Shown here: piece by piece, positions 1 to 9,048 of the stretch
Layout: each line of letters starts with the position of its first letter
Position numbering within the stretch: position 1 is the first letter of the stretch
Assembly (NCBI RefSeq): GCF_003003005.1
Contig: NZ_PVTR01000002.1
Location: forward strand, 396,831-460,830
From: Mongoliibacter ruber
GTDB taxonomy: Bacteria; Bacteroidota; Bacteroidia; Cytophagales; Cyclobacteriaceae
Direction of reading: 5' to 3'
DNA: 64,000 bases
Made by a program: the position numbers and the translations under genes
Notes under the pieces: model-generated
Seen by the model: the letters and a program-made list of their open reading frames with translations, nothing else
The model's database searches: none
Told to the model about the DNA's origin: nothing

Positions 1-543
1 TGATTTCCAAGCGTCATTGAATAGCCCCTGTTCCATAGCGAGGGAATTTTGTTTGATGGTGGTTTCCATTTGAACTATCAATTCTTCTATCTCTTGAATG
101 GAGGCAGCTTCTTGAAAAAATTTGTCTTTCATTTCTTCCGGAAGGGTAAAAATACCTGCCCCAAAATAGATCAAAGCTTCTGCTGTTGATTTGACGGAGA
201 TTTCAGTTCTGCCTTTACCAAGAACACCCATCAGCATGGCATTGTCTTCTTTGTCCAGTAGGTATGCCATCACATACTCTTCTGAAGGGATGTAAGATTT
301 GGATGCTCCTGAGGAATTCACCTCATATTCAAATAATCCTGAAAGAACTTTAGAATCGTCGAAATTGACTGCAGTACCTTCAGGAAAAGTGATGTTGATA
401 GGAGAAGTTGGAAGTTTCTCTGAACCAGGATCGTCTATTGGGTCCTCAGTAACAGGTGGGATATCAGGTTCTTCAATGTCTTTGCATGAATTGACTGCCA
501 AAAAAAACACGATCAGTAGGAGCAGGGTAGATTTTAATTTCAT
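1..543 (-). CDS. Lipoprotein of unknown function, cut by the window edge
   Basis: An open minus-strand frame of 181 codons starts at ATG 541-543 and runs without a stop to base 1, so the C-terminus is missing. The N-terminus is a lipoprotein signal: a charged MKLK, a hydrophobic stretch and a lipobox ending in Cys20 (AVNSC). An acidic, proline-rich linker of about 25 residues follows (EEPDIPPVTEDP). The rest is a soluble domain I do not recognise. It lies 65 bp downstream of the CHAT protease gene on the same strand, so it may be the fourth gene of that operon and would then be an envelope partner. Function is unknown; the reading frame and lipoprotein status are well supported. Confidence 0.75.
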   Translation of the reverse strand, partial: MKLKSTLLLLIVFFLAVNSCKDIEEPDIPPVTEDPIDDPGSEKLPTSPINITFPEGTAVNFDDSKVLSGLFEYEVNSSGASKSYIPSEEYVMAYLLDKEDNAMLMGVLGKGRTEISVKSTAEALIYFGAGIFTLPEEMKDKFFQEAASIQEIEELIVQMETTIKQNSLAMEQGLFNDAWKS

Positions 544-608
544 GATGATAAAAGGTTAGAATTATACCCTATCATCGAAGATGTTTCAAAATGTCATCAT
601 AAAAAGTT

Positions 609-3600
609 TCAGAACTGGCTTCTTTTCTTTCTAAGAAGAAAAGTGAAGGATAACAAAAGAAATAATCCTAAAATCCAGTATATCCAATTGTGGTTTTTTC
701 TTAAGTCCGGAATAGGCCCCACATCGCCGATCAGAACCAATCCTGCCCAGTATTGGGGAGAAAGTGTTCTTCCTTTGGCTGTGGAAAGGTATTTCAACTT
801 TGCTTCTTTGAGAGCTTTGTCTTTTGCCATTCCCTCAGACAAAAACTCCAAAAAATAATCTGTGATCTCCATGCTCGATTTTTCATCCACTTTCCAAAGA
901 CTTGTCAAGAGGCTTTCAGAACCGGCATATTGGAAAGCATGAGAAAGGGACACCATTCCTTCTCCTGGCTGAAATACTGGTTTCCCAGTTTCGCATGCTG
1001 TCAACAAAGTCAGGTTCGACTGCAAGTCGATATTGTAAATTTGATAGGCATATAGAGCGTTATCTTCTTCAAAAGGATCATCATTTTTAGCAAAAATAAG
1101 TTTGGAAAAAACTGGACTTAAATTGTTTGATTCAGCATGTGTACCAATATGGATAATTTTGTTTTTGGCTGCTTTTTCACGGAATGTTTTTGTTGTTGAT
1201 TTATGGTAAGCAAAGATGTTTCCACCAAAGGTTTTAGCTGCTTTGCTGGCAACGTTGATAGTAAAAGGCTGAGGCAAAAGTGAAAGGTATACTTTGTCCA
1301 GACTCAAAGTATCGTTCACTGATTTGAGGTAATTTTCCTTCATATTATCTAAAAAACCGGGGGTAAAAGCCACATAATTGGCTCGTATTTCTTTTGAACT
1401 TTTGGTAAAGCCCAGCCAAGAGCTAAACTGGTAAGAGATGTCATGTTTGACAATTAAGCTATGTAACAGCAATTCCTCATAGGTTTTTATTTCCCTGTCT
1501 GTCAACAGGTCGAAACTCAGGTTAAACAGAATCCCGTCAGGAATTATCAATACGCTGGGTTCATTCAGGTTTTTTGCAAAAGGTTGCCAAAGTTGTTGAT
1601 ATAGTTGATGAGTAACGGCTCCTAAAGCTTTTTGATCATGCCAGAGGGATGAAAGTTTTTTGACCAATTCAGGATTGAAATTCAATGAATAAAGCTTCAT
1701 TTTTCCATTCTTGATTACGATGGCCTTGAGATCCTCCCCCACAAAAAGGTACCTGACAACCTGTTTTTCTATAGGAAAATCCAATTCTCCTTCATCAATA
1801 TCTCCATATCTAGTTTGGTAATATGCGGGATATTTGGATTTGAGCAATTTCAGGTGCTCTTCCCATTTTGAAGAAATTTCTATAAAATCTTCCATATCTC
1901 CCCCTTCTGCCAAGATGTAACCTAATTCATCCCTGATCATGGAACCTTCTTCTATAATGGATTCAGGAACGCCACTAAACCTAACCTGTCTTTGTTGGTT
2001 GAGTTGAGCTCGGATTTTGGAATACACACTTGACTCGTGAATAGCGATCAGTTGGCTTAGGTATCTTTGATCTCCGGTTTTTTCATACAGTTCTAACTCG
2101 ATTCTTTTGACAAAATTGATGATTTCCTGATTTTGGGAAAGTAAGACACCTAAATCCCCACTGTCTGAAAGCATTGCCTTCCGTTTCTCCAAAAGCTGAA
2201 GCGCAAAGCGTAATTCGCTTAGCATTGATTCCAAATAATTGACAGAAGGTTCCGTATTGGTTTGATAATCCGACTTCCATTTAAGCAAAAAGGCCATTGG
2301 TTTTTCATATTCTATTCTCACCGAATCGGTAAGATTGTTGACGGATTCCAAAAGAGTTTCAAGAATTGCCATACCCTCCTCTGCTGTTGACTTGGCTAAG
2401 GAATACTTTTCCAGATTATAGTAGACACGGCTTCTGTTGATTACCTGTTGAAAACCAGGGAGAGATTTGATACCATTGATTTTCATAGTGTAGTCATATC
2501 CTATTTTTGATAATTTTTGTGCTATCTCTGGTTCTCCATGAAGTGAGAAAAAATCAGCAGCATGGCCTAAAAAATCTAAATAGACCAGATCCAAAGACTG
2601 ATTATTGGTCTGCTGAAAGTATTGCATAGACGTATAATAATACTCCTTTGCAGAATCAATTTCTTTTTCACTTTCTGCGATCAAGGCAAGTGTGTAGTAA
2701 ATATCCGCTAGGCGCAATGGAAATTTTTCATCTGTTGCGTTAAGATCATCAATGGCACGGTACAGGTATTTTTTGGCTTCGCCATAATTCATCAAATAAT
2801 TGTGAACTTGGCCAATCAAAATTAGGCTTTCTGTGATTTCAGGATGTCCTGCTGCGAAATATTTCTCTTTCTCCTTTAGTGTATGCTCGTGGATGTGAAG
2901 TGCTTGAAGATAGTTACCCATACTTTTATAGGTGATTCCTAAGTTCATCGAACTGTAAAAAATGGAAAACATCGCACGGTCACGTTTGGGGTCATCAATT
3001 GCCTGCTCTACAAACGCTTTACTGTTTATAATAGATGACTTGACCATTTTTACACTTTCATCAAGCTTGCCTTTAACCTCATAGACAGCTGCTAGATTCC
3101 CTTCTATCATAGCCCTTCGGTATAATCTGTTGGTGGGGTTATTTTCCAACAGTTCCAAATAAGCTATACCTTTTTTCCAATAATATTCCGCAGAATCCCA
3201 AATAGAAGCGTACCAATAAGAAACACCCAAATCATTGAGGATATTGAATCTGCTTTCGGAACTGGTATTGGGATCGTTATCAAATCCCTCCAAGGCCTTG
3301 AGGGTATGAGCACGGGCAAGATCAAAATTGTCAAGTCGCGTAGCAAGAACGCCTAAATTTCGCTCAATTATCGCCCATTCAGATGGGGTATGGTCTGGGA
3401 TTTGAAAGGTGAAATTCAATGCCATACTATTGGCGTCATAAGCTAATTTAATCTTGCCAACAAACAGGTAATACCGATGTGATTCAAGATGAGCTTGTCT
3501 TAAAACTCTTGGATCCTGACTTTTCTCAGAAACAAAATCCAACCAATAAGTCATCTTTTCCATCCCATATTGCATGTCTTTTTGTTTGTTACCTATAAAT

Positions 3601-3809
3601 CCTGCAAAGGGAACAAAATAGCTAAGATTCAAATAATCACTATTGTTGATATAATGGTTTGTATGGGTATCAAACAATTTAACGGCCCTATCAAGATTTT
3701 CCTCGTTGACCGCTTTTTGGACTTCAGCCAATCGCTCGTCGATAGTTTGCCCAAAGATATACAAGGGCAAAAAAATTGAAACGAAACCAATTATGGCTGA
3801 TTTTTTCAC
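609..3809 (-). CDS. Periplasmic TPR-CHAT (caspase-like) protease, membrane anchored
   Basis: This 1066-residue protein has a signal peptide (about residues 1-21, ending YIFGQ), a long run of TPR-type helical repeats (about 60-450), a helical linker and a C-terminal CHAT domain (about 720-1030). The CHAT catalytic pair is visible: His891 in HIGTHA and Cys939 in LLTACETG. A single membrane helix (about 1040-1060) and a basic tail RKKRSQF close the protein. The topology therefore puts TPRs and protease in the periplasm, tethered by the C-terminus to the inner membrane. CHAT is a clan CD peptidase fold related to caspases and separase. The start ATG overlaps the stop of the upstream anti-sigma-like gene by 4 bp, so the two are translationally coupled. 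The substrate is unknown; the upstream anti-sigma-like protein is an attractive candidate. Confidence 0.88.
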   Translation of the reverse strand: MKKSAIIGFVSIFLPLYIFGQTIDERLAEVQKAVNEENLDRAVKLFDTHTNHYINNSDYLNLSYFVPFAGFIGNKQKDMQYGMEKMTYWLDFVSEKSQDPRVLRQAHLESHRYYLFVGKIKLAYDANSMALNFTFQIPDHTPSEWAIIERNLGVLATRLDNFDLARAHTLKALEGFDNDPNTSSESRFNILNDLGVSYWYASIWDSAEYYWKKGIAYLELLENNPTNRLYRRAMIEGNLAAVYEVKGKLDESVKMVKSSIINSKAFVEQAIDDPKRDRAMFSIFYSSMNLGITYKSMGNYLQALHIHEHTLKEKEKYFAAGHPEITESLILIGQVHNYLMNYGEAKKYLYRAIDDLNATDEKFPLRLADIYYTLALIAESEKEIDSAKEYYYTSMQYFQQTNNQSLDLVYLDFLGHAADFFSLHGEPEIAQKLSKIGYDYTMKINGIKSLPGFQQVINRSRVYYNLEKYSLAKSTAEEGMAILETLLESVNNLTDSVRIEYEKPMAFLLKWKSDYQTNTEPSVNYLESMLSELRFALQLLEKRKAMLSDSGDLGVLLSQNQEIINFVKRIELELYEKTGDQRYLSQLIAIHESSVYSKIRAQLNQQRQVRFSGVPESIIEEGSMIRDELGYILAEGGDMEDFIEISSKWEEHLKLLKSKYPAYYQTRYGDIDEGELDFPIEKQVVRYLFVGEDLKAIVIKNGKMKLYSLNFNPELVKKLSSLWHDQKALGAVTHQLYQQLWQPFAKNLNEPSVLIIPDGILFNLSFDLLTDREIKTYEELLLHSLIVKHDISYQFSSWLGFTKSSKEIRANYVAFTPGFLDNMKENYLKSVNDTLSLDKVYLSLLPQPFTINVASKAAKTFGGNIFAYHKSTTKTFREKAAKNKIIHIGTHAESNNLSPVFSKLIFAKNDDPFEEDNALYAYQIYNIDLQSNLTLLTACETGKPVFQPGEGMVSLSHAFQYAGSESLLTSLWKVDEKSSMEITDYFLEFLSEGMAKDKALKEAKLKYLSTAKGRTLSPQYWAGLVLIGDVGPIPDLRKNHNWIYWILGLFLLLSFTFLLRKKRSQF

Positions 3810-4546
3810 AATTTCTCCAGTTCTTTTAACAATTTGGCTGTTTGGGGATTTTGGCTTTGATTAAGCATATTTATTGCCTCATCTACTTTTCCTCCAAGTA
3901 GGTATGCTAAGGCTAAATACCATGTTGCATCTTCATAAAAGGCCGATTCTTCTTTGGAAACAAAAGAGTTCAAGTAGAAGATAGCTGGATCAGCCTTTTT
4001 GAGAGCTAAATTGGAAGCCCCCAGGAAATATTGAAGCGTATCATTTTCGGGGTTATTTTGAATCAATTTTTCCCACCTGACAATAGCCTCTTCATATTTT
4101 CCTGATTTGTAATCCACCATGGCTCTGTCAAATTCATAATTGGATGCTGAACTCATGGCCGTAATCAATCCTGGATCTTCCTGATAAAATTGGGCGAAGA
4201 GTCTCTCATGGCTAGGAGTTGGTGGGTAGATGGTCCATACAGCGGCTACGATACATAGGAAAATGGCAGCGGCAGCAGCCCAGGGCCAATAGTTGATGCT
4301 TCGGTTGGTTGTTATTCTTTGGGTTGGGGCTTCCATTTCCTTATGGAAAATTTCCAAGTCCTCTCGTAGTGCAGCTTCTTCGAGGCCTGAAATGATTGTT
4401 TTTACTTCAAGGTATTTTTTCCTCAGGTCATTATCACTTTCCATCTCCAATTCAAAAGCGTCACTTTCCTCTGCGCTTATATTGCCAAAGATGTATTGCT
4501 CAATTCTTTCAAACTCTTCTTGCGGTATATGATTAGGGTTTTTCAA
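3806..4546 (-). CDS. Transmembrane TPR protein, probable anti-sigma factor
   Basis: This protein has 246 residues. Residues 1-85 are cytoplasmic, charged and helical, with the FERIEQYIFGNISAEESDAF type of start seen in Bacteroidota anti-sigma-like partners. One membrane helix lies at about 87-108. The periplasmic part (about 120-240) carries TPR-like repeats around VDYKSGKYEEAIVRWEKLIQ and YLGASNLALKKADPAIFYL. It lies between an ECF sigma gene (4-bp overlap at 4543-4546) and the CHAT protease gene (4-bp overlap at 3806-3809). Gene order and topology suggest that it holds the sigma factor at the membrane and senses a periplasmic signal. The anti-sigma role is inferred; no ZAS-type HxxxCxxC zinc motif is present. 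The alternative is a TPR scaffold for the CHAT protein. Confidence 0.75.
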   Translation of the reverse strand: MKNPNHIPQEEFERIEQYIFGNISAEESDAFELEMESDNDLRKKYLEVKTIISGLEEAALREDLEIFHKEMEAPTQRITTNRSINYWPWAAAAAIFLCIVAAVWTIYPPTPSHERLFAQFYQEDPGLITAMSSASNYEFDRAMVDYKSGKYEEAIVRWEKLIQNNPENDTLQYFLGASNLALKKADPAIFYLNSFVSKEESAFYEDATWYLALAYLLGGKVDEAINMLNQSQNPQTAKLLKELEKL

Positions 4547-5115
4547 AGTTCTTTGCTGGTTTTAGATTTCCATTTTTCTTTAAGGGCTTGGATGCACCTG
4601 TATTTGTTGTTTCGCGCAGTAGCAGTGGTCCAATTGAAATAGGTCGCAATTTCTTCCATGCTTTGTTTTAGATAGTAATAGCGCTTCAAAACCTCTTTGC
4701 AGCTGTCTCCTAAGTTTTGAAACTCCTTCACAACCCAGTCATGATCATCTTCTTTTGAAAGAAAATCCTCATCAGGTAAATCTTCATAGTTTTCTAAATT
4801 CACCATATTGACTTTGCTTTTTGAGGACCTTAACCTATCCAACCATTTATTTTTTGCTATCTGATAGATGTAGCCATTGATGGCTGTCCTATTATCTGGT
4901 TTAAACTTATCCGACCTTACATTCTTCCAGACAACGACAAAAGCTTCTTGATAAATGTCCTTTGCGTCTTCTCGGTCTCCATTATTTGTCAGAATAAACT
5001 GCTCTATTTTTTTAAATTCTGATTGGTAGAATTGCCGGATTATCTCGGAATTATTGGATTTAATTCCTTTTATTATTTCTTCTTGGGAGAATTTTCTAAA
5101 AGTGTATTCCTGCAT
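4543..5115 (-). CDS. ECF-type RNA polymerase sigma factor
   Basis: This 190-residue sigma-70 family protein has region 2 (about 20-100, with DIYQEAFVVVWKN and a YIYQIAKNKWLDRLR stretch) and region 4 (about 130-182, with LKQSMEEIATYFNWTTATAR as the helix-turn-helix). It lacks regions 1 and 3, as ECF factors do. It is the first gene of an operon with the anti-sigma-like TPR protein and the CHAT protease. A Bacteroidota-type promoter sits 17 bp upstream (5132-5162), giving a very short leader. ECF factors usually activate their own operon, so self-activation is likely, but I see no direct proof. The region 4 linker is acidic (NYEDLPDEDFLSKEDDHD). Confidence 0.9.
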   Translation of the reverse strand: MQEYTFRKFSQEEIIKGIKSNNSEIIRQFYQSEFKKIEQFILTNNGDREDAKDIYQEAFVVVWKNVRSDKFKPDNRTAINGYIYQIAKNKWLDRLRSSKSKVNMVNLENYEDLPDEDFLSKEDDHDWVVKEFQNLGDSCKEVLKRYYYLKQSMEEIATYFNWTTATARNNKYRCIQALKEKWKSKTSKEL

Positions 5116-5566
5116 GATTTAGACGCTTACAGAAATATACAATTAAATGCTTTTTATCCCAAAATTTCTTTTGTTATAATTTTAATTCTTTACCCTGATC
5201 TAGAAGTATTTATGATTTCCAATCATCTAATTTTTTTCTTGATGTTTCTAATTACCCTTACATCGGATATATGTATCAAATGTCATCTAGAAAATCACCC
5301 TAATTTTCTTTCTTGGAGGATTTCCTGACAAACAGCTACTGTTTAAGAAAAAGCTGAAAATGATAATTGTCAGGAAAGAATTAATTCTGTCATGTCGGTT
5401 GTTTTTAAAAAGTGGCTTGCTGTTTTGACATCGTCAAATAGTGGACATGTCATCAAACTAAAGGTATTATTGATTTTGTTTGCCAGAGCGAGTTGTTTAT
5501 GTGCTGAAAGGAACATTTTTTTTTCTTACTGATCTAAAATCTTTATTATCATGGAAAATTTCATTT
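5116..5566. other. Intergenic region with nested palindromes before the fucosidase gene
   Basis: No gene is supported here. Apart from the promoter at 5132-5162, the stretch holds a 10-bp perfect inverted repeat TTTCCTGACA (5321-5330) / TGTCAGGAAA (5368-5377). Next to its left arm is a 15-bp palindrome AAACAGctaCTGTTT (5330-5344). A second palindrome, TTTGACatcGTCAAA, lies at 5424-5438. They sit 130-250 bp upstream of the fucosidase start and look more like operator or RNA-structure elements than coding DNA. No clear TAnnTTTG promoter for the fucosidase gene was found. Confidence 0.4.
5132..5162 (-). promoter_or_regulatory. Promoter of the sigma/anti-sigma/CHAT operon
   Basis: On the minus strand, TTG (5160-5162) is followed by 20 bases and then TATATTTC (5132-5139). 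This matches the Bacteroidota consensus TTG-N19-21-TAnnTTTG with one mismatch in the -7 box. A start of transcription near 5126 would leave a leader of only about 10 bases before the ATG at 5115. Confidence 0.55.
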
Positions 5567-7624
5567 ATGAAAAGATTATTCCTTCCTCTCTTGATTGTAT
5601 TGGCCTGTCAAGGTCCTGAAGTCGCGCCTCCCGATCCAGTTTATCCTATCCCCTCTGAGCGCCAACTGGCCTGGCATGAATTGGAGTATTATGGGTTTAT
5701 CCATTTCAATATGAATACTTTTTCAGATATGGAATGGGGTATGGGGGATGAAGATCCTGCTGATTTTTATCCTTCAGCTTTGGATGCCAGGCAATGGGCA
5801 AAAGTGGCCAGGGATGCTGGTATGAAAGGCCTGATCATCACTGCCAAACATCATGATGGCTTTTGTCTGTGGCCTTCGGCATATACAGAACATTCTGTTA
5901 AAAACTCCCCTTGGAGAGAAGGAGAGGGAGATTTGATTCGAGAACTGAGAGAAGCCTGTGATGAATATGGTTTGAAAATGGGTATTTACTATTCTCCATG
6001 GGATAGAAATCATGCTGATTATGGGAAACCCGAATATATTACCTACATGAGGAATCAACTGACCGAGTTGTTGACCAATTACGGGGAAATTTTCGAGGTG
6101 TGGTTTGATGGTGCAAATGGAGGAACAGGCTATTATGGAGGTGCGAATGAGGATAGAAAAGTTGATAAGAAGTCTTATTATGAGTGGGAAAACACCATTG
6201 CTTTAGTCAGAGAACTTCAGCCCAATGCAGTCATTTTCGGAGATGCAGGACCTGATGTGCGCTGGGTTGGCAATGAACATGGCTTTGCGTATGAAACCAC
6301 CTGGTCAAACCTTCTTAGGGATTCTGTCTATGCAGGAATGCCTGAATACGCCGACCAATATGCCAAAGGTCAGGAAGACGGTTCGCATTGGGTTCCGGCC
6401 GAAGCAGATGTGTCCATCAGGCCCGGTTGGTATTACCATGAATACGAAGACCATAAGGTTAAAACTTTGCCTCAGCTTTTGGATATTTATTATAAAAGCA
6501 TAGGCCAGAATGCTTCTCTTTTGATCAATTTTCCTGTAGATAGGAGAGGCCTGATCCATGAAAAAGATGTGGAACAGATCCTGAAGCTCAAGGAAAAAAT
6601 AGACGAAGATTTTGCTGAAGATCTAAGCAGCACAGCAAAAGTGCGAGCCAGTAATGAAAGAGGAAATGGATATGAAGCCAATAATGTACTCGATGGACGC
6701 AAGGAAAGCTACTGGGCCACTGAGGATGGTATGATCCAAAGTCATCTGGCATTTACATTTGATGATCCCACTTGGGTCAACAGGTTTGTAGTGCAAGAAT
6801 ACATAGCTCTTGGGCAAAGGATAAAAAAATTCAGCCTCGAAGCAAAAACCGAAAATGGTTGGGAACTCATTGCAGAAGGAACGACAATTGGTACCAAGAG
6901 AATTTTACGTTTTGATGATATTGAAGTAAGGCAGATCCGTTTGAATATTTTGGACGCCAAAGCTGAACCTCTTTTGTCGTCAATAGGGATATTTTACGCA
7001 CCAAAATTGGTGACAGAACCTATTTTAAGAAGAGAAAAATCAGGTATTCTCACTCTTGAAGTTCCAGAAAGCGGGATAGAAATTTTTTACACGGTTGACG
7101 GTTCTACTCCTGATACCCAATCTCCAGTGTATGAAAGTCCTTTGATGGTAGACCAGCCAGTTACCTTAAAAACTATCGCTGTGGATAGGGGAACTGGAAG
7201 AAAAAGTGAAGTAATGACTTATGCCTTGGATATTCCAAAGGCACAATGGAAAGTTTTGAGTTCTGATATTGGTGCCGAAAAAGCGATTGATGAAGATCCA
7301 CAGACTTTTTGGAAGAGTGACAGTAATGAATTGGTGATTGACTTTGGGGAAGAACATAAAATAAGTGGCTTTACTTATTGGCCACCTCAAAACAGGTATA
7401 TGACTGGCATAATATCCCAGTTCGTATTTCAGGGGAGCAATGATGGGGAAAACTGGCGTGATTTGGCGGAAGGGGAGTTTTCTAACATCCACAATAATCC
7501 CATTGAGCAACAGGTCAGGTTTTCCGAAGCGACAGTAAGGTATGTCAAGTTAAGAGCCAAACAGACTACTGATGACCAAAACGCTGCGTTTGGGGAGGTA
7601 GGAGTGATAACTTTTGAACAGTAA
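5567..7624 (+). CDS. Alpha-L-fucosidase (GH29) lipoprotein with F5/8C and CHB_HEX_C domains
   Basis: I start this gene at ATG 5567, giving 685 residues, because this M begins a clean lipoprotein signal (MKRLFLPLLIVLAC, Cys14); the open frame extends upstream without signal-like sequence. Residues about 20-340 are a GH29 catalytic barrel. HHDGFCLWPS and a VWFDGANGG motif are visible, and Asp181 in the latter is the expected nucleophile. Residues about 345-485 and 560-685 look like F5/8 type C (galactose-binding-like) modules. Between them is a CHB_HEX_C-like segment with IFYTVDGSTPD. The enzyme should remove terminal alpha-L-fucose from glycans at the cell surface or in the periplasm. It is not inside a recognisable SusCD polysaccharide-utilisation locus. 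Fucose linkage specificity cannot be read from the sequence. Confidence 0.9.
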   Translation: MKRLFLPLLIVLACQGPEVAPPDPVYPIPSERQLAWHELEYYGFIHFNMNTFSDMEWGMGDEDPADFYPSALDARQWAKVARDAGMKGLIITAKHHDGFCLWPSAYTEHSVKNSPWREGEGDLIRELREACDEYGLKMGIYYSPWDRNHADYGKPEYITYMRNQLTELLTNYGEIFEVWFDGANGGTGYYGGANEDRKVDKKSYYEWENTIALVRELQPNAVIFGDAGPDVRWVGNEHGFAYETTWSNLLRDSVYAGMPEYADQYAKGQEDGSHWVPAEADVSIRPGWYYHEYEDHKVKTLPQLLDIYYKSIGQNASLLINFPVDRRGLIHEKDVEQILKLKEKIDEDFAEDLSSTAKVRASNERGNGYEANNVLDGRKESYWATEDGMIQSHLAFTFDDPTWVNRFVVQEYIALGQRIKKFSLEAKTENGWELIAEGTTIGTKRILRFDDIEVRQIRLNILDAKAEPLLSSIGIFYAPKLVTEPILRREKSGILTLEVPESGIEIFYTVDGSTPDTQSPVYESPLMVDQPVTLKTIAVDRGTGRKSEVMTYALDIPKAQWKVLSSDIGAEKAIDEDPQTFWKSDSNELVIDFGEEHKISGFTYWPPQNRYMTGIISQFVFQGSNDGENWRDLAEGEFSNIHNNPIEQQVRFSEATVRYVKLRAKQTTDDQNAAFGEVGVITFEQ

Positions 7625-7647
7625 CTTACAACCAAACCCCTATAAAC

Positions 7648-8112
7648 ATTTCACCACTGTTTAAAAAATTGAATTTTAAGGACCATCCACATATCATTGT
7701 GCTCTATAGTCCGGAATCATTTCAGGAAGAGTTGGAAAAAATGAAGGCAGAAACTGCCATTTTGCATGAGATCCAAGGTTTGGATAAAGCCCATTTTGTC
7801 ATCGTATTTGTGAAAACGATGGATGAGATTGAAAAATCAATAGCTGAAATATATCCAAAACTTGAGGGTGATGGTGTGCTTTGGTATTGTTATCCTAAAG
7901 CTTCTTCCAAGAAATATACCTGTGAATTCAACCGGGATACAGGTTGGGGGGCCTTAGGCAAGTACAACCTTGAAGGTGTCAGGCAAGTGGCTATAGATGA
8001 AGACTGGAGTGCATTAAGATTTAGGAAAGTGGAATATATCAAGACGTTAAAAAGAAGCAAGGATATGATTCTTTCTGAGGCGGGAAGCAAAAAGTCTGAT
8101 CCAGACAGGTAG
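7648..8112 (+). CDS. DUF3052-like small protein, start codon uncertain
   Basis: This small protein of about 147-154 residues has the pattern of DUF3052 proteins: a strand-helix start (HIIVLYSPESFQEELEKM), a VIVFVKTMDEIEKSI helix, GDGVLWYCYPKASSK and a terminal AIDEDWSALRFRKVEYI. The start is unclear. There is no ATG before 7741, which would remove the conserved-looking N-terminus. Reading back in frame gives ISPLFKKLNFKDH, so initiation at the ATT at 7648, or at CTG 7657 or TTG 7669, is possible; I use 7648 because it keeps the whole segment. The gene lies 23 bp after the fucosidase stop. Its function is unknown, and the family has no established biochemical role that I can name. Confidence 0.65.
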   Translation: MSPLFKKLNFKDHPHIIVLYSPESFQEELEKMKAETAILHEIQGLDKAHFVIVFVKTMDEIEKSIAEIYPKLEGDGVLWYCYPKASSKKYTCEFNRDTGWGALGKYNLEGVRQVAIDEDWSALRFRKVEYIKTLKRSKDMILSEAGSKKSDPDR

Positions 8113-8163
8113 GAAGTCAATAAAATTTGAGAATTCTGGAAGGATATTTCCAATTCCCATGTT

Positions 8164-8988
8164 TCAAATGATTTCATTTTTCTTTAGCTCACGCATGACA
8201 GCGCCTATCGCCTTGGATTTGACTTGGCGGTCGGGTTGACGACGGTTGTACGTATTGACCCAATAGGTAACGGAGATTTTAACATTGGTACCGACTACAT
8301 CACTGATGAAAGCCGTCGCTTTTCTTTTATCTTTCAAAACTCCTGGTACTTTTTCAATGGTTTGAAGGATAAGCTCGAGCGATTTATCCAAGTCTTTCTC
8401 TGAAGATACCTGAATGTCAAAAGTGTAAGCAAGAAATCCATCAATGGTGTAATTGATCAATGGAGACTTAATAATATTGGCATTTGGGATAAAGAGGTCT
8501 TTTCCATCTGATGTTTTCAGTTGGGTGTCCCTTAAATTGAGTACCAATACCCTTCCCCTGAGGTTGTTGATTTCTACAATATCTCCCACCCTAAATGGAC
8601 GTTTGAAGGCAAGCAATATACCTGCAAGGAAGTTTTCACCGATGTCTTTTAAGGCAAAACCAATCACAAAAGCTGTAATTCCTGCACCGGCAAGTATTCC
8701 TCCTACCACACCTGACAATCCCAGAAGACGGAAGATGATGGTAAATCCAAAAAGCATGATGATAATTCTGAGAATAGACCCGATAAAGTCAGCCAAGAGG
8801 GGATCATCGGTATTCTTTTTCACCCTTGAATTGGCCAGGTTTTTCAGCCAACGGGAAACAAAAAAGAAAATTAAAAAAATGAGGACGCCGAAAAAAATGG
8901 AAATAGCCAATTTTTCTATGCTTTCAATATCTCCTAAAACGATATTTTTGATGCGCTCCAAAGTAGACCTAAAATCCAAATCTTCCAT
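8164..8988 (-). CDS. Small-conductance mechanosensitive channel, MscS family
   Basis: The protein has 274 residues. Three membrane helices lie in the first 125 residues (about 20-45, 65-90 and 95-120). The last is the glycine/alanine-rich pore helix, with VGGILAGAGITAFVIGFALKD. The MscS beta domain follows (VGDIVEINNLRGRVLVLNLRDTQL) and then the alpha/beta C-terminal domain. MscS channels open under membrane tension and release solutes on osmotic downshift. The gene stands alone on the minus strand, convergent with the DUF3052-like gene. A second member of the family is encoded at 48085-48927; the two are clearly different in sequence, so this is not a recent duplication. Confidence 0.92.
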   Translation of the reverse strand: MEDLDFRSTLERIKNIVLGDIESIEKLAISIFFGVLIFLIFFFVSRWLKNLANSRVKKNTDDPLLADFIGSILRIIIMLFGFTIIFRLLGLSGVVGGILAGAGITAFVIGFALKDIGENFLAGILLAFKRPFRVGDIVEINNLRGRVLVLNLRDTQLKTSDGKDLFIPNANIIKSPLINYTIDGFLAYTFDIQVSSEKDLDKSLELILQTIEKVPGVLKDKRKATAFISDVVGTNVKISVTYWVNTYNRRQPDRQVKSKAIGAVMRELKKNEII

Positions 8989-9048
8989 ATTTCTTTAATT
9001 TGGGATCAGCGCTTCACGAAACTTTTTATTAAGTCAACTTTAATACTA

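Follow-up and report, generated by a model that had tools for sequence, protein, structure and literature searches.

A conserved linker residue in a one-pass anti-sigma factor tracks the suspected substrate pocket of a co-encoded CHAT protease in Bacteroidia

Introduction

How the extracytoplasmic function (ECF) sigma factors of Bacteroidota are switched is largely an open question, because few of them have a recognised class I anti-sigma factor nearby (6%, against 32% of ECF sigma factors overall; PMC7406223). A locus of Mongoliibacter ruber poses this question together with a second one, namely what a protease gene is doing beside such a sigma factor. The locus lies in a 64,000-nt stretch of contig NZ_PVTR01000002.1 (the window, to whose positions all coordinates refer). 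At 609–5115 of its minus strand, the genes of an ECF sigma factor, a one-pass anti-sigma factor with tetratricopeptide repeats (TPRs) and an exported TPR-CHAT protease follow one another in this order, with 4-bp overlaps at 4543–4546 and 3806–3809. Here we report that the anti-sigma linker carries a conserved Arg or Met which, in sequence comparisons, tracks two positions of the CHAT domain at the expected S1 pocket, a relationship that is new. It is probable, in our judgement, that the three genes make up an envelope-to-transcription unit in which the CHAT protein would serve as a dedicated site-1 protease, cutting the anti-sigma factor in the stretch that joins the membrane helix to the TPR domain. 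The module is widespread in class Bacteroidia, the window operon being one copy, and it thus offers a class-wide candidate switch with a named protease, bond and pocket.

Results and discussion

A conserved Arg or Met in the anti-sigma linker

A first-pass annotation of this DNA had described three overlapping minus-strand genes, encoding an ECF sigma factor, a one-pass TPR protein and a TPR-CHAT protein with a His891/Cys939 pair, a signal peptide and a C-terminal anchor. All three are open reading frames (ORFs) with the overlaps described, and the coordinates, topology and dyad are right; signal peptide and anchor place the CHAT domain on the periplasmic side, as had been proposed. The features of the operon are as follows.

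4543–5115, minus: ECF sigma factor, 190 aa (TIGR02937 sigma70-ECF, 72.8 bits against a cut-off of 42.9; Sigma70_r2, 39.7 against 24; sigma region 4 under its cut-off, 17.4 against 24.1)
3806–4546, minus: one-pass TPR anti-sigma factor, 246 aa, start TTG (ORF, Pfam/NCBIfam, AlphaFold2 model)
4331–4522, minus: predicted cytoplasmic anti-sigma domain, residues 9–72 (model helices 9–19, 25–37 and 39–72; best PDB match of its profile 3hug_B)
4229–4288, minus: membrane helix of the anti-sigma factor, residues 87–106 (hydropathy, model)
4139–4186, minus: conserved coil, residues 121–136, leading from the membrane helix to the TPR domain of the anti-sigma factor (alignments, model)
4151–4156, minus: candidate scissile bond M131/S132 of the anti-sigma factor (of 130 pairs, 85 have M and 44 have R here, with a small residue next)
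3812–4138, minus: periplasmic TPR domain of the anti-sigma factor, residues 137–245 (Pfam TPR matches, model)
609–3809, minus: exported TPR-CHAT protease, 1066 aa, start GTG (Pfam CHAT, 116 bits, E 2.7e-33)
3747–3809, minus: signal peptide of the CHAT protein, residues 1–21 (sequence by eye, hydropathy)
1809–3743, minus: TPR solenoid of the CHAT protein, residues 23–667 (Pfam TPR, model)
723–1616, minus: CHAT domain, residues 732–1029 (Pfam)
1137–1139, minus: catalytic His891 of CHAT (invariant)
993–995, minus: catalytic Cys939 of CHAT (invariant in linked CHATs)
1251–1253, minus: CHAT position 853, Val here and Glu in Arg-type pairs, first suspected S1-pocket residue
882–884, minus: CHAT position 976, Glu here and Asp in Arg-type pairs, second suspected S1-pocket residue
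615–686, minus: C-terminal membrane anchor of the CHAT protein, residues 1042–1065 (AlphaFold2)

Within the clade of the window, the linker is the most conserved stretch of the anti-sigma factor and reads DPGL-x-T-x-M-[SG] or near, and other lineages carry R before a small residue at the same place. We assembled 130 unique anti-sigma/CHAT pairs (135 before duplicates were removed, with four loci left out beforehand), requiring an anti-sigma score > 80 and a gap < 2,600 bases. The linker residue, 20–30 residues outside the membrane helix, is R in 44 pairs, M in 85 and H in one, and the R is the sole column of 86–150 that is identical in all 44 Arg-type anti-sigma factors. It is followed by G (21), S (16), N (3), A (2), D (1) or E (1), and M by S (63) or G (22). 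A count that requires no alignment gave the same picture: 19–33 residues after the membrane helix, R[GSNA] occurs in 43/44 Arg-type proteins, where shuffling expects 7.4, and M[GSNA] in 85/85, where it expects 15.1. As a control, we took the 15 other ECF sigma factors of the M. ruber genome, eight of which have a neighbour bearing a membrane segment beyond its N-terminus. Read by eye, the motif occurs among these neighbours in that of L250 alone, itself a TPR anti-sigma factor. Eight pairs outside the thresholds were checked afterwards. L121 has the M motif and a CHAT with E976; L186, L211, L232 and L233 combine the R motif with E853/D976, and L236 has the R motif and E853, with a gap at 976.

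The L250 locus (L250:1020-2382, contig C7 of the M. ruber genome) encodes a sigma factor and a 261-aa TPR anti-sigma factor with LSQTMGNSEEL after its membrane helix, and has no CHAT neighbour. The same genome holds, on contig C14, a lone exported CHAT with anchor (L035:4991-7771; S853/S976), and the two may be partners in trans.

The linker residue tracks two CHAT positions

Residues 853 and 976 of the CHAT domain change with the linker. A first set of 33 pairs had E853 and D976 in 23/23 Arg pairs, and E976 in 7/7 Met pairs of the window's clade. Among the 130 pairs, R goes with E853/D976 in 44/44 and M with E976 in 85/85, and 853 is non-acidic in 84 of these 85 Met pairs (L 65, T 10, V 4, I 2, F 1, A 1, Y 1). 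The 44 Arg pairs are much diverged and keep R, E853 and D976 all fixed. In the model, 853 falls in the early part of the helix that follows the caspase fold's first strand, and 976 opens the helix that comes after W972. PMC4626109 places P1-contacting residues at the start of helix alpha1 (gingipain-R D163, MALT-1 D365, modelled separase E917) and in a second region (caspase-3 R207, MALT-1 E500, modelled separase D1082). Placed by secondary structure, 853 and 976 are thus suspected to sit where clan CD proteases hold P1, and it is because of this place in the fold that we single them out among the columns that separate the two groups. A conserved candidate site on one protein, with partner positions in the protease, lends support to the reading in which CHAT would cut the anti-sigma factor.

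The module is widespread in Bacteroidia

Conservation of the three-gene order across Bacteroidota had been named beforehand as a check on the first-pass annotation, and the result is strongly in favour. We ranked 471 stretches encoding relatives, found in a scan of named genome contigs, and took the best 80 (records include Algoriphagus, Cyclobacterium, Aquiflexum, Psychroserpens, Winogradskyella, Terrimonas and others). Sigma, anti-sigma and CHAT genes are adjacent in the window order in 61 of these 80 loci, three have tandem CHATs after the anti-sigma gene, and CHAT lies ahead of the sigma/anti-sigma pair in eight. The window CHAT matches 64/98 related genomes. Of 60 regions around such matches (for the most part the top-ranked among about 150 listed rows, with two region pairs overlapping), 30 hold a sigma factor and a one-pass anti-sigma factor, two an anti-sigma factor alone and two a sigma factor alone. 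A profile of linked CHAT domains matches 94/295 genomes drawn from class Bacteroidia. Sixty regions from the top of its list, with a few rows including the window's own left out, contain sigma and anti-sigma matches in 36 cases, some weak (L206, L214, L221, L236), and an anti-sigma match alone in two; since linked CHATs were the source of the profile, the draw is biased towards them.

In the 5.0 Mb of the M. ruber genome, 16 ECF matches exceed the cut-off, so that a sigma factor is expected by chance in about 3–4% of 11-kb regions, a figure from this genome alone that may be higher where ECF sigma factors are more numerous. Measured against it, 30/60 and 36/60 place the sigma–CHAT linkage far above chance. 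Of the three CHAT genes in the M. ruber genome, the window's alone adjoins a sigma factor. Layouts in other Bacteroidia vary between same strand, tail to tail (convergent) and divergent.

Two arrangements are recorded here as side observations. Two CHAT genes stand in tandem behind one sigma/anti-sigma pair at L107, L114, L135, L164, L067 and L068. CHATs of the Met clade, mostly from Aequorivita, occur without any sigma factor in the locus at L154, L158, L162, L168, L172, L173, L175 and L176; they are perhaps paralogues, since L171 has CHAT both with and without the pair.

Sigma exchange was examined in a quick tree of 57 CHAT-linked sigma factors (Met-type thinned) and the 15 other ECF sigma factors of M. 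ruber. It puts 52/57 linked sigma factors on one side of a branch with a Shimodaira–Hasegawa-like approximate likelihood ratio test (SH-aLRT) value of 99, together with one other ECF sigma factor, that of L250. The remaining five belong to two other sigma lineages (L061 and L070; L181, L206 and L217), and the module therefore seems to have swapped its sigma factor at least twice. All five loci retain R/E853/D976.

The CHAT protein and the anti-sigma factor

By family, the window CHAT domain with its His/Cys dyad is a CHAT peptidase, with predicted activity. H891 and C939 are invariant in a 29-row CHAT alignment and in 86/86 CHATs of the named loci. Linked CHATs have both His and Cys in 32/32; in an unlinked set, His is present in 35/35 and Cys in 33/35, one of the other two being cut off. 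A C-terminal membrane segment is found in 136/136 complete CHATs at linked loci, compared with 52/68 at other loci. The AlphaFold2 model of the CHAT protein has a predicted local distance difference test (pLDDT) value of 84.3. In a fold search, this model matches Csx29 (7y9x_B) with Z 27.5 and a root-mean-square deviation (rmsd) of 11.1 over 513; the values are Z 24.5 and rmsd 3.1 over 300 for separase (5fby), and Z 19.9 and rmsd 5.2 over 597 for DdvA (8rot). Two TPR proteins (8jal, 8jaq) rank higher than all three. The best PDB match of the CHAT sequence profile is 8rot (DdvA; E 3.2e-9), with the aligned His and Cys kept; separase was reached by fold only and not by this profile. Against the Csx29 model, the window CHAT scores 17.7 bits at a cut-off of 300.

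For the anti-sigma factor, an AlphaFold2 model from 57 sequences (mean pLDDT 89.5, predicted template modelling score 0.60) has its N-terminal helices within residues 9–72 and the membrane helix at 87–106, followed by a short helix (112–120), the coil (121–136) and TPR helices (137–245). The TPRs match Pfam, and NCBIfam NF052375 'antisigma' matches weakly (27.2 bits, cut-off 100). The N-terminal domains of 47 members were combined in a profile, whose best PDB match is 3hug_B (E 9e-4), which we take to be the anti-sigma factor RslA; zf-HC2 is found in 7/47 of these domains and NF052375 in 13/47. By sequence, then, this N-terminus resembles class I anti-sigma domains. The signature Hx3Cx2C of zinc-binding class I domains (PMC7406223) is absent from the window protein, and since the motif is optional in class I its absence is compatible with that class. 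The anti-sigma factor at L070:7804-8580 (minus strand) keeps Hx3Cx2C; its sigma factor belongs to another lineage, yet it has an Arg linker and an E853/D976 CHAT. TPR proteins took up the results of a fold search with the model of the anti-sigma factor, which therefore speaks neither for nor against an anti-sigma fold. Csx30 was not among the PDB sequence matches of the anti-sigma factor or of its N-terminal domain.

A proposed route from envelope to sigma factor, and its alternatives

We propose that the N-terminal domain of the one-pass anti-sigma factor would hold the ECF sigma factor at the inner membrane. The TPR-CHAT protein, a cysteine protease that is exported and held in this membrane by its anchor, would sense a periplasmic cue through its TPR solenoid or a partner. 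Once active, it would cut the anti-sigma factor in the short coil before the TPR domain, putatively between M131 and S132 here and after Arg in most other lineages; the conserved candidate contact with CHAT is this linker ahead of the TPR domain, whereas the first-pass annotation had suggested that the two TPR regions could pair. An anti-sigma factor that has lost its periplasmic TPR domain could then be cut in its membrane helix stub by an RseP-like protease, freeing the sigma factor. The M. ruber genome has an RseP-type Peptidase_M50 gene (240 bits). The module had been called self-contained, which is probably too strong, because a site-2 protease would be needed as well.

Several observations weigh against this route. 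The Arg/Met split is mainly one event, with one clear joint switch and two ambiguous departures: in a tree of 86 of the 130 pairs, a single clade (SH-aLRT 99) holds 40/41 M rows, and the second case is L079, which has M with E853 and E976 and a divergent CHAT gene 2.3 kb away. At the other ambiguous locus, L096, the residue is H, or alternatively the M at the next position, and the CHAT has S853/D976. Numerous further CHAT columns separate the Arg and Met groups as well, as a clade difference would. Among CHATs whose loci are not in the pair list, 53/72 have E853/D976, which makes these residues a general property of CHATs instead of a mark of this partnership; judged from these sequences, specificity for Arg may represent the ground state in these CHATs. 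Eight of the 80 named loci have no sigma factor nearby, an orphan sigma/anti-sigma pair of the linked clade in the M. ruber genome has the motif and no adjacent CHAT, and in two of the pairs outside the thresholds (L214, L221) the anti-sigma candidate scores low and lacks the motif. The N-terminal-domain profile reaches RsrA (E 0.95) and the DdvA anti-sigma domain (E 1.1) without significance, and it also picks G-protein constructs (E 0.0055–0.0058), matches that we read as chance. Finally, sigma and CHAT genes in opposed layouts share no promoter motif (at least 11/12 letters in 16/34 own against 49/120 crossed pairs).

The alternative that survives best, which we nevertheless hold to be unlikely, is control without cutting: the TPR-CHAT body would bind the linker as a sensor or co-repressor, and the R/M motif would be its docking site. 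DdvA has anti-sigma and CHAT parts in one chain, in which the CHAT part might act in this way, and a docking motif is also expected to be conserved and could track partner positions. Pure binding, however, would not need the Cys/His dyad, which linked CHATs retain (32/32 and 86/86), and a small residue after R or M, together with tracking positions where an S1 pocket is expected, fits a substrate better than a docking site. Less likely again is that another protease cuts the linker and that CHAT is an output of the sigma factor, for instance an envelope-processing or cell-death enzyme. The orphan pair with the same motif is in keeping with this, as are opposed layouts, in which the CHAT gene must carry its own promoter; the tracking of CHAT pocket positions by the linker residue argues against a different protease, and the lack of a common promoter motif, a weak test, against a sigma output. 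It is very improbable that the substrate of CHAT is the neighbouring lipoprotein or another envelope protein, with a purely regulatory link to the sigma factor, for although an 836-aa lipoprotein gene follows CHAT in the window and in relatives, it differs or is missing in most loci, whereas sigma and anti-sigma genes stay.

Relation to known systems

That a CHAT protease may be linked to sigma release is a known idea, with a biochemical precedent in Craspase and a structural one in DdvA. Of the DdvS/DdvA pair of Myxococcus xanthus (PDB 8rot, 8rw5, 8rlz), DdvA is a transmembrane anti-sigma factor with a CHAT domain. It therefore likewise combines the two functions, but in one chain, whereas here there are two ORFs with a 4-bp overlap and the CHAT protein has its own signal peptide and anchor. 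DdvS turns active upon DdvA inactivation (PMC4374960).

Site-1 cleavage by CHAT as proposed here also has a parallel in the DegS/RseP/RseA pathway, whose anti-sigma factor is likewise a one-pass protein; in the window's system the candidate cut lies 20–30 residues outside the membrane helix and an RseP-type gene is present in the genome. DegS, the site-1 protease of RseA, is a serine PDZ protease, whereas the proposed enzyme is a cysteine CHAT protease encoded with the sigma factor. The DegS/RseA parallel has been drawn for Craspase, too (PMC10028731). According to that paper, Csx29 cuts Csx30 between residues 427 and 429 and no longer does so once M427 is deleted, and Csx30 inhibits the sigma factor CASP-sigma. 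As far as that account goes, Craspase is likewise a TPR-CHAT protease that cuts, in a loop, the inhibitor of an ECF sigma factor, and the Met-type linker motif recalls the M427 region of Csx30. Csx29 is cytoplasmic, bound to Cas7-11 and triggered by RNA, whereas the CHAT protein described here is exported and anchored. Separase (family C50) has the same caspase-like fold, is eukaryotic and cleaves cohesin; it cuts after Arg (PMC4626109). If the proposed route is true, a separase-like protease would act in the bacterial envelope as a signalling enzyme.

CHAT genes near ECF54 sigma factors have led to a proposal of proteolytic control, and this group is described as working without an anti-sigma factor (PMC8999054); the window module has a predicted one. 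Caspase-bearing conflict systems with an ECF sigma factor and a TPR protein nearby have also been described (PMC8195603). In the literature searched, we found no paper in which a periplasmic CHAT protease targets an anti-sigma factor in Bacteroidota, and an earlier mention is possible.

The module hints at a possible origin of the CRISPR Craspase. More tentatively, and with the odds against it, sigma release could be an old and widespread job of CHAT proteases. In Bacteroidia they would be membrane-anchored periplasmic enzymes dedicated to site-1 cleavage, their specificity shifting from Arg to Met along with the linker; DdvA of myxobacteria would be a one-chain version; and type III-E CRISPR would have taken over such a sigma/inhibitor/CHAT unit, giving rise to Craspase.

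Neighbouring genes

A fourth gene of the window, overlooked in the first-pass annotation, encodes a lipoprotein on the same strand.

1–543, minus: N-terminal part of the 836-aa lipoprotein, a lineage-specific fourth gene that begins 66 bp beyond CHAT and is truncated by the left window edge

We considered this gene as a core part of the module and rejected it: besides the window, at least five relatives have the lipoprotein (L037, L039, L041, L097, which is cut by the contig end, and L101), and elsewhere the gene is different or absent. The full protein (L034:9864-12374, minus strand; 836 aa) has no Pfam match and is a possible lineage-specific sensor. Neighbours seen at the window locus are the lipoprotein, an unassigned 858-aa protein and alanine racemase. 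No RNA element in window positions 1–9000 matched Rfam at gathering scores, and PADLOC gave no match to a known defence protein at E 0.01.

Other loci have different genes at these places. At L136, L143 and L167, the gene right after CHAT encodes an exported protein in which a subtilase-like stretch (DRGIDYR) was read by eye, and a lipoprotein resembling a serine hydrolase (by eye) lies between CHAT and the sigma/anti-sigma pair at L112, L113, L116 and L121.

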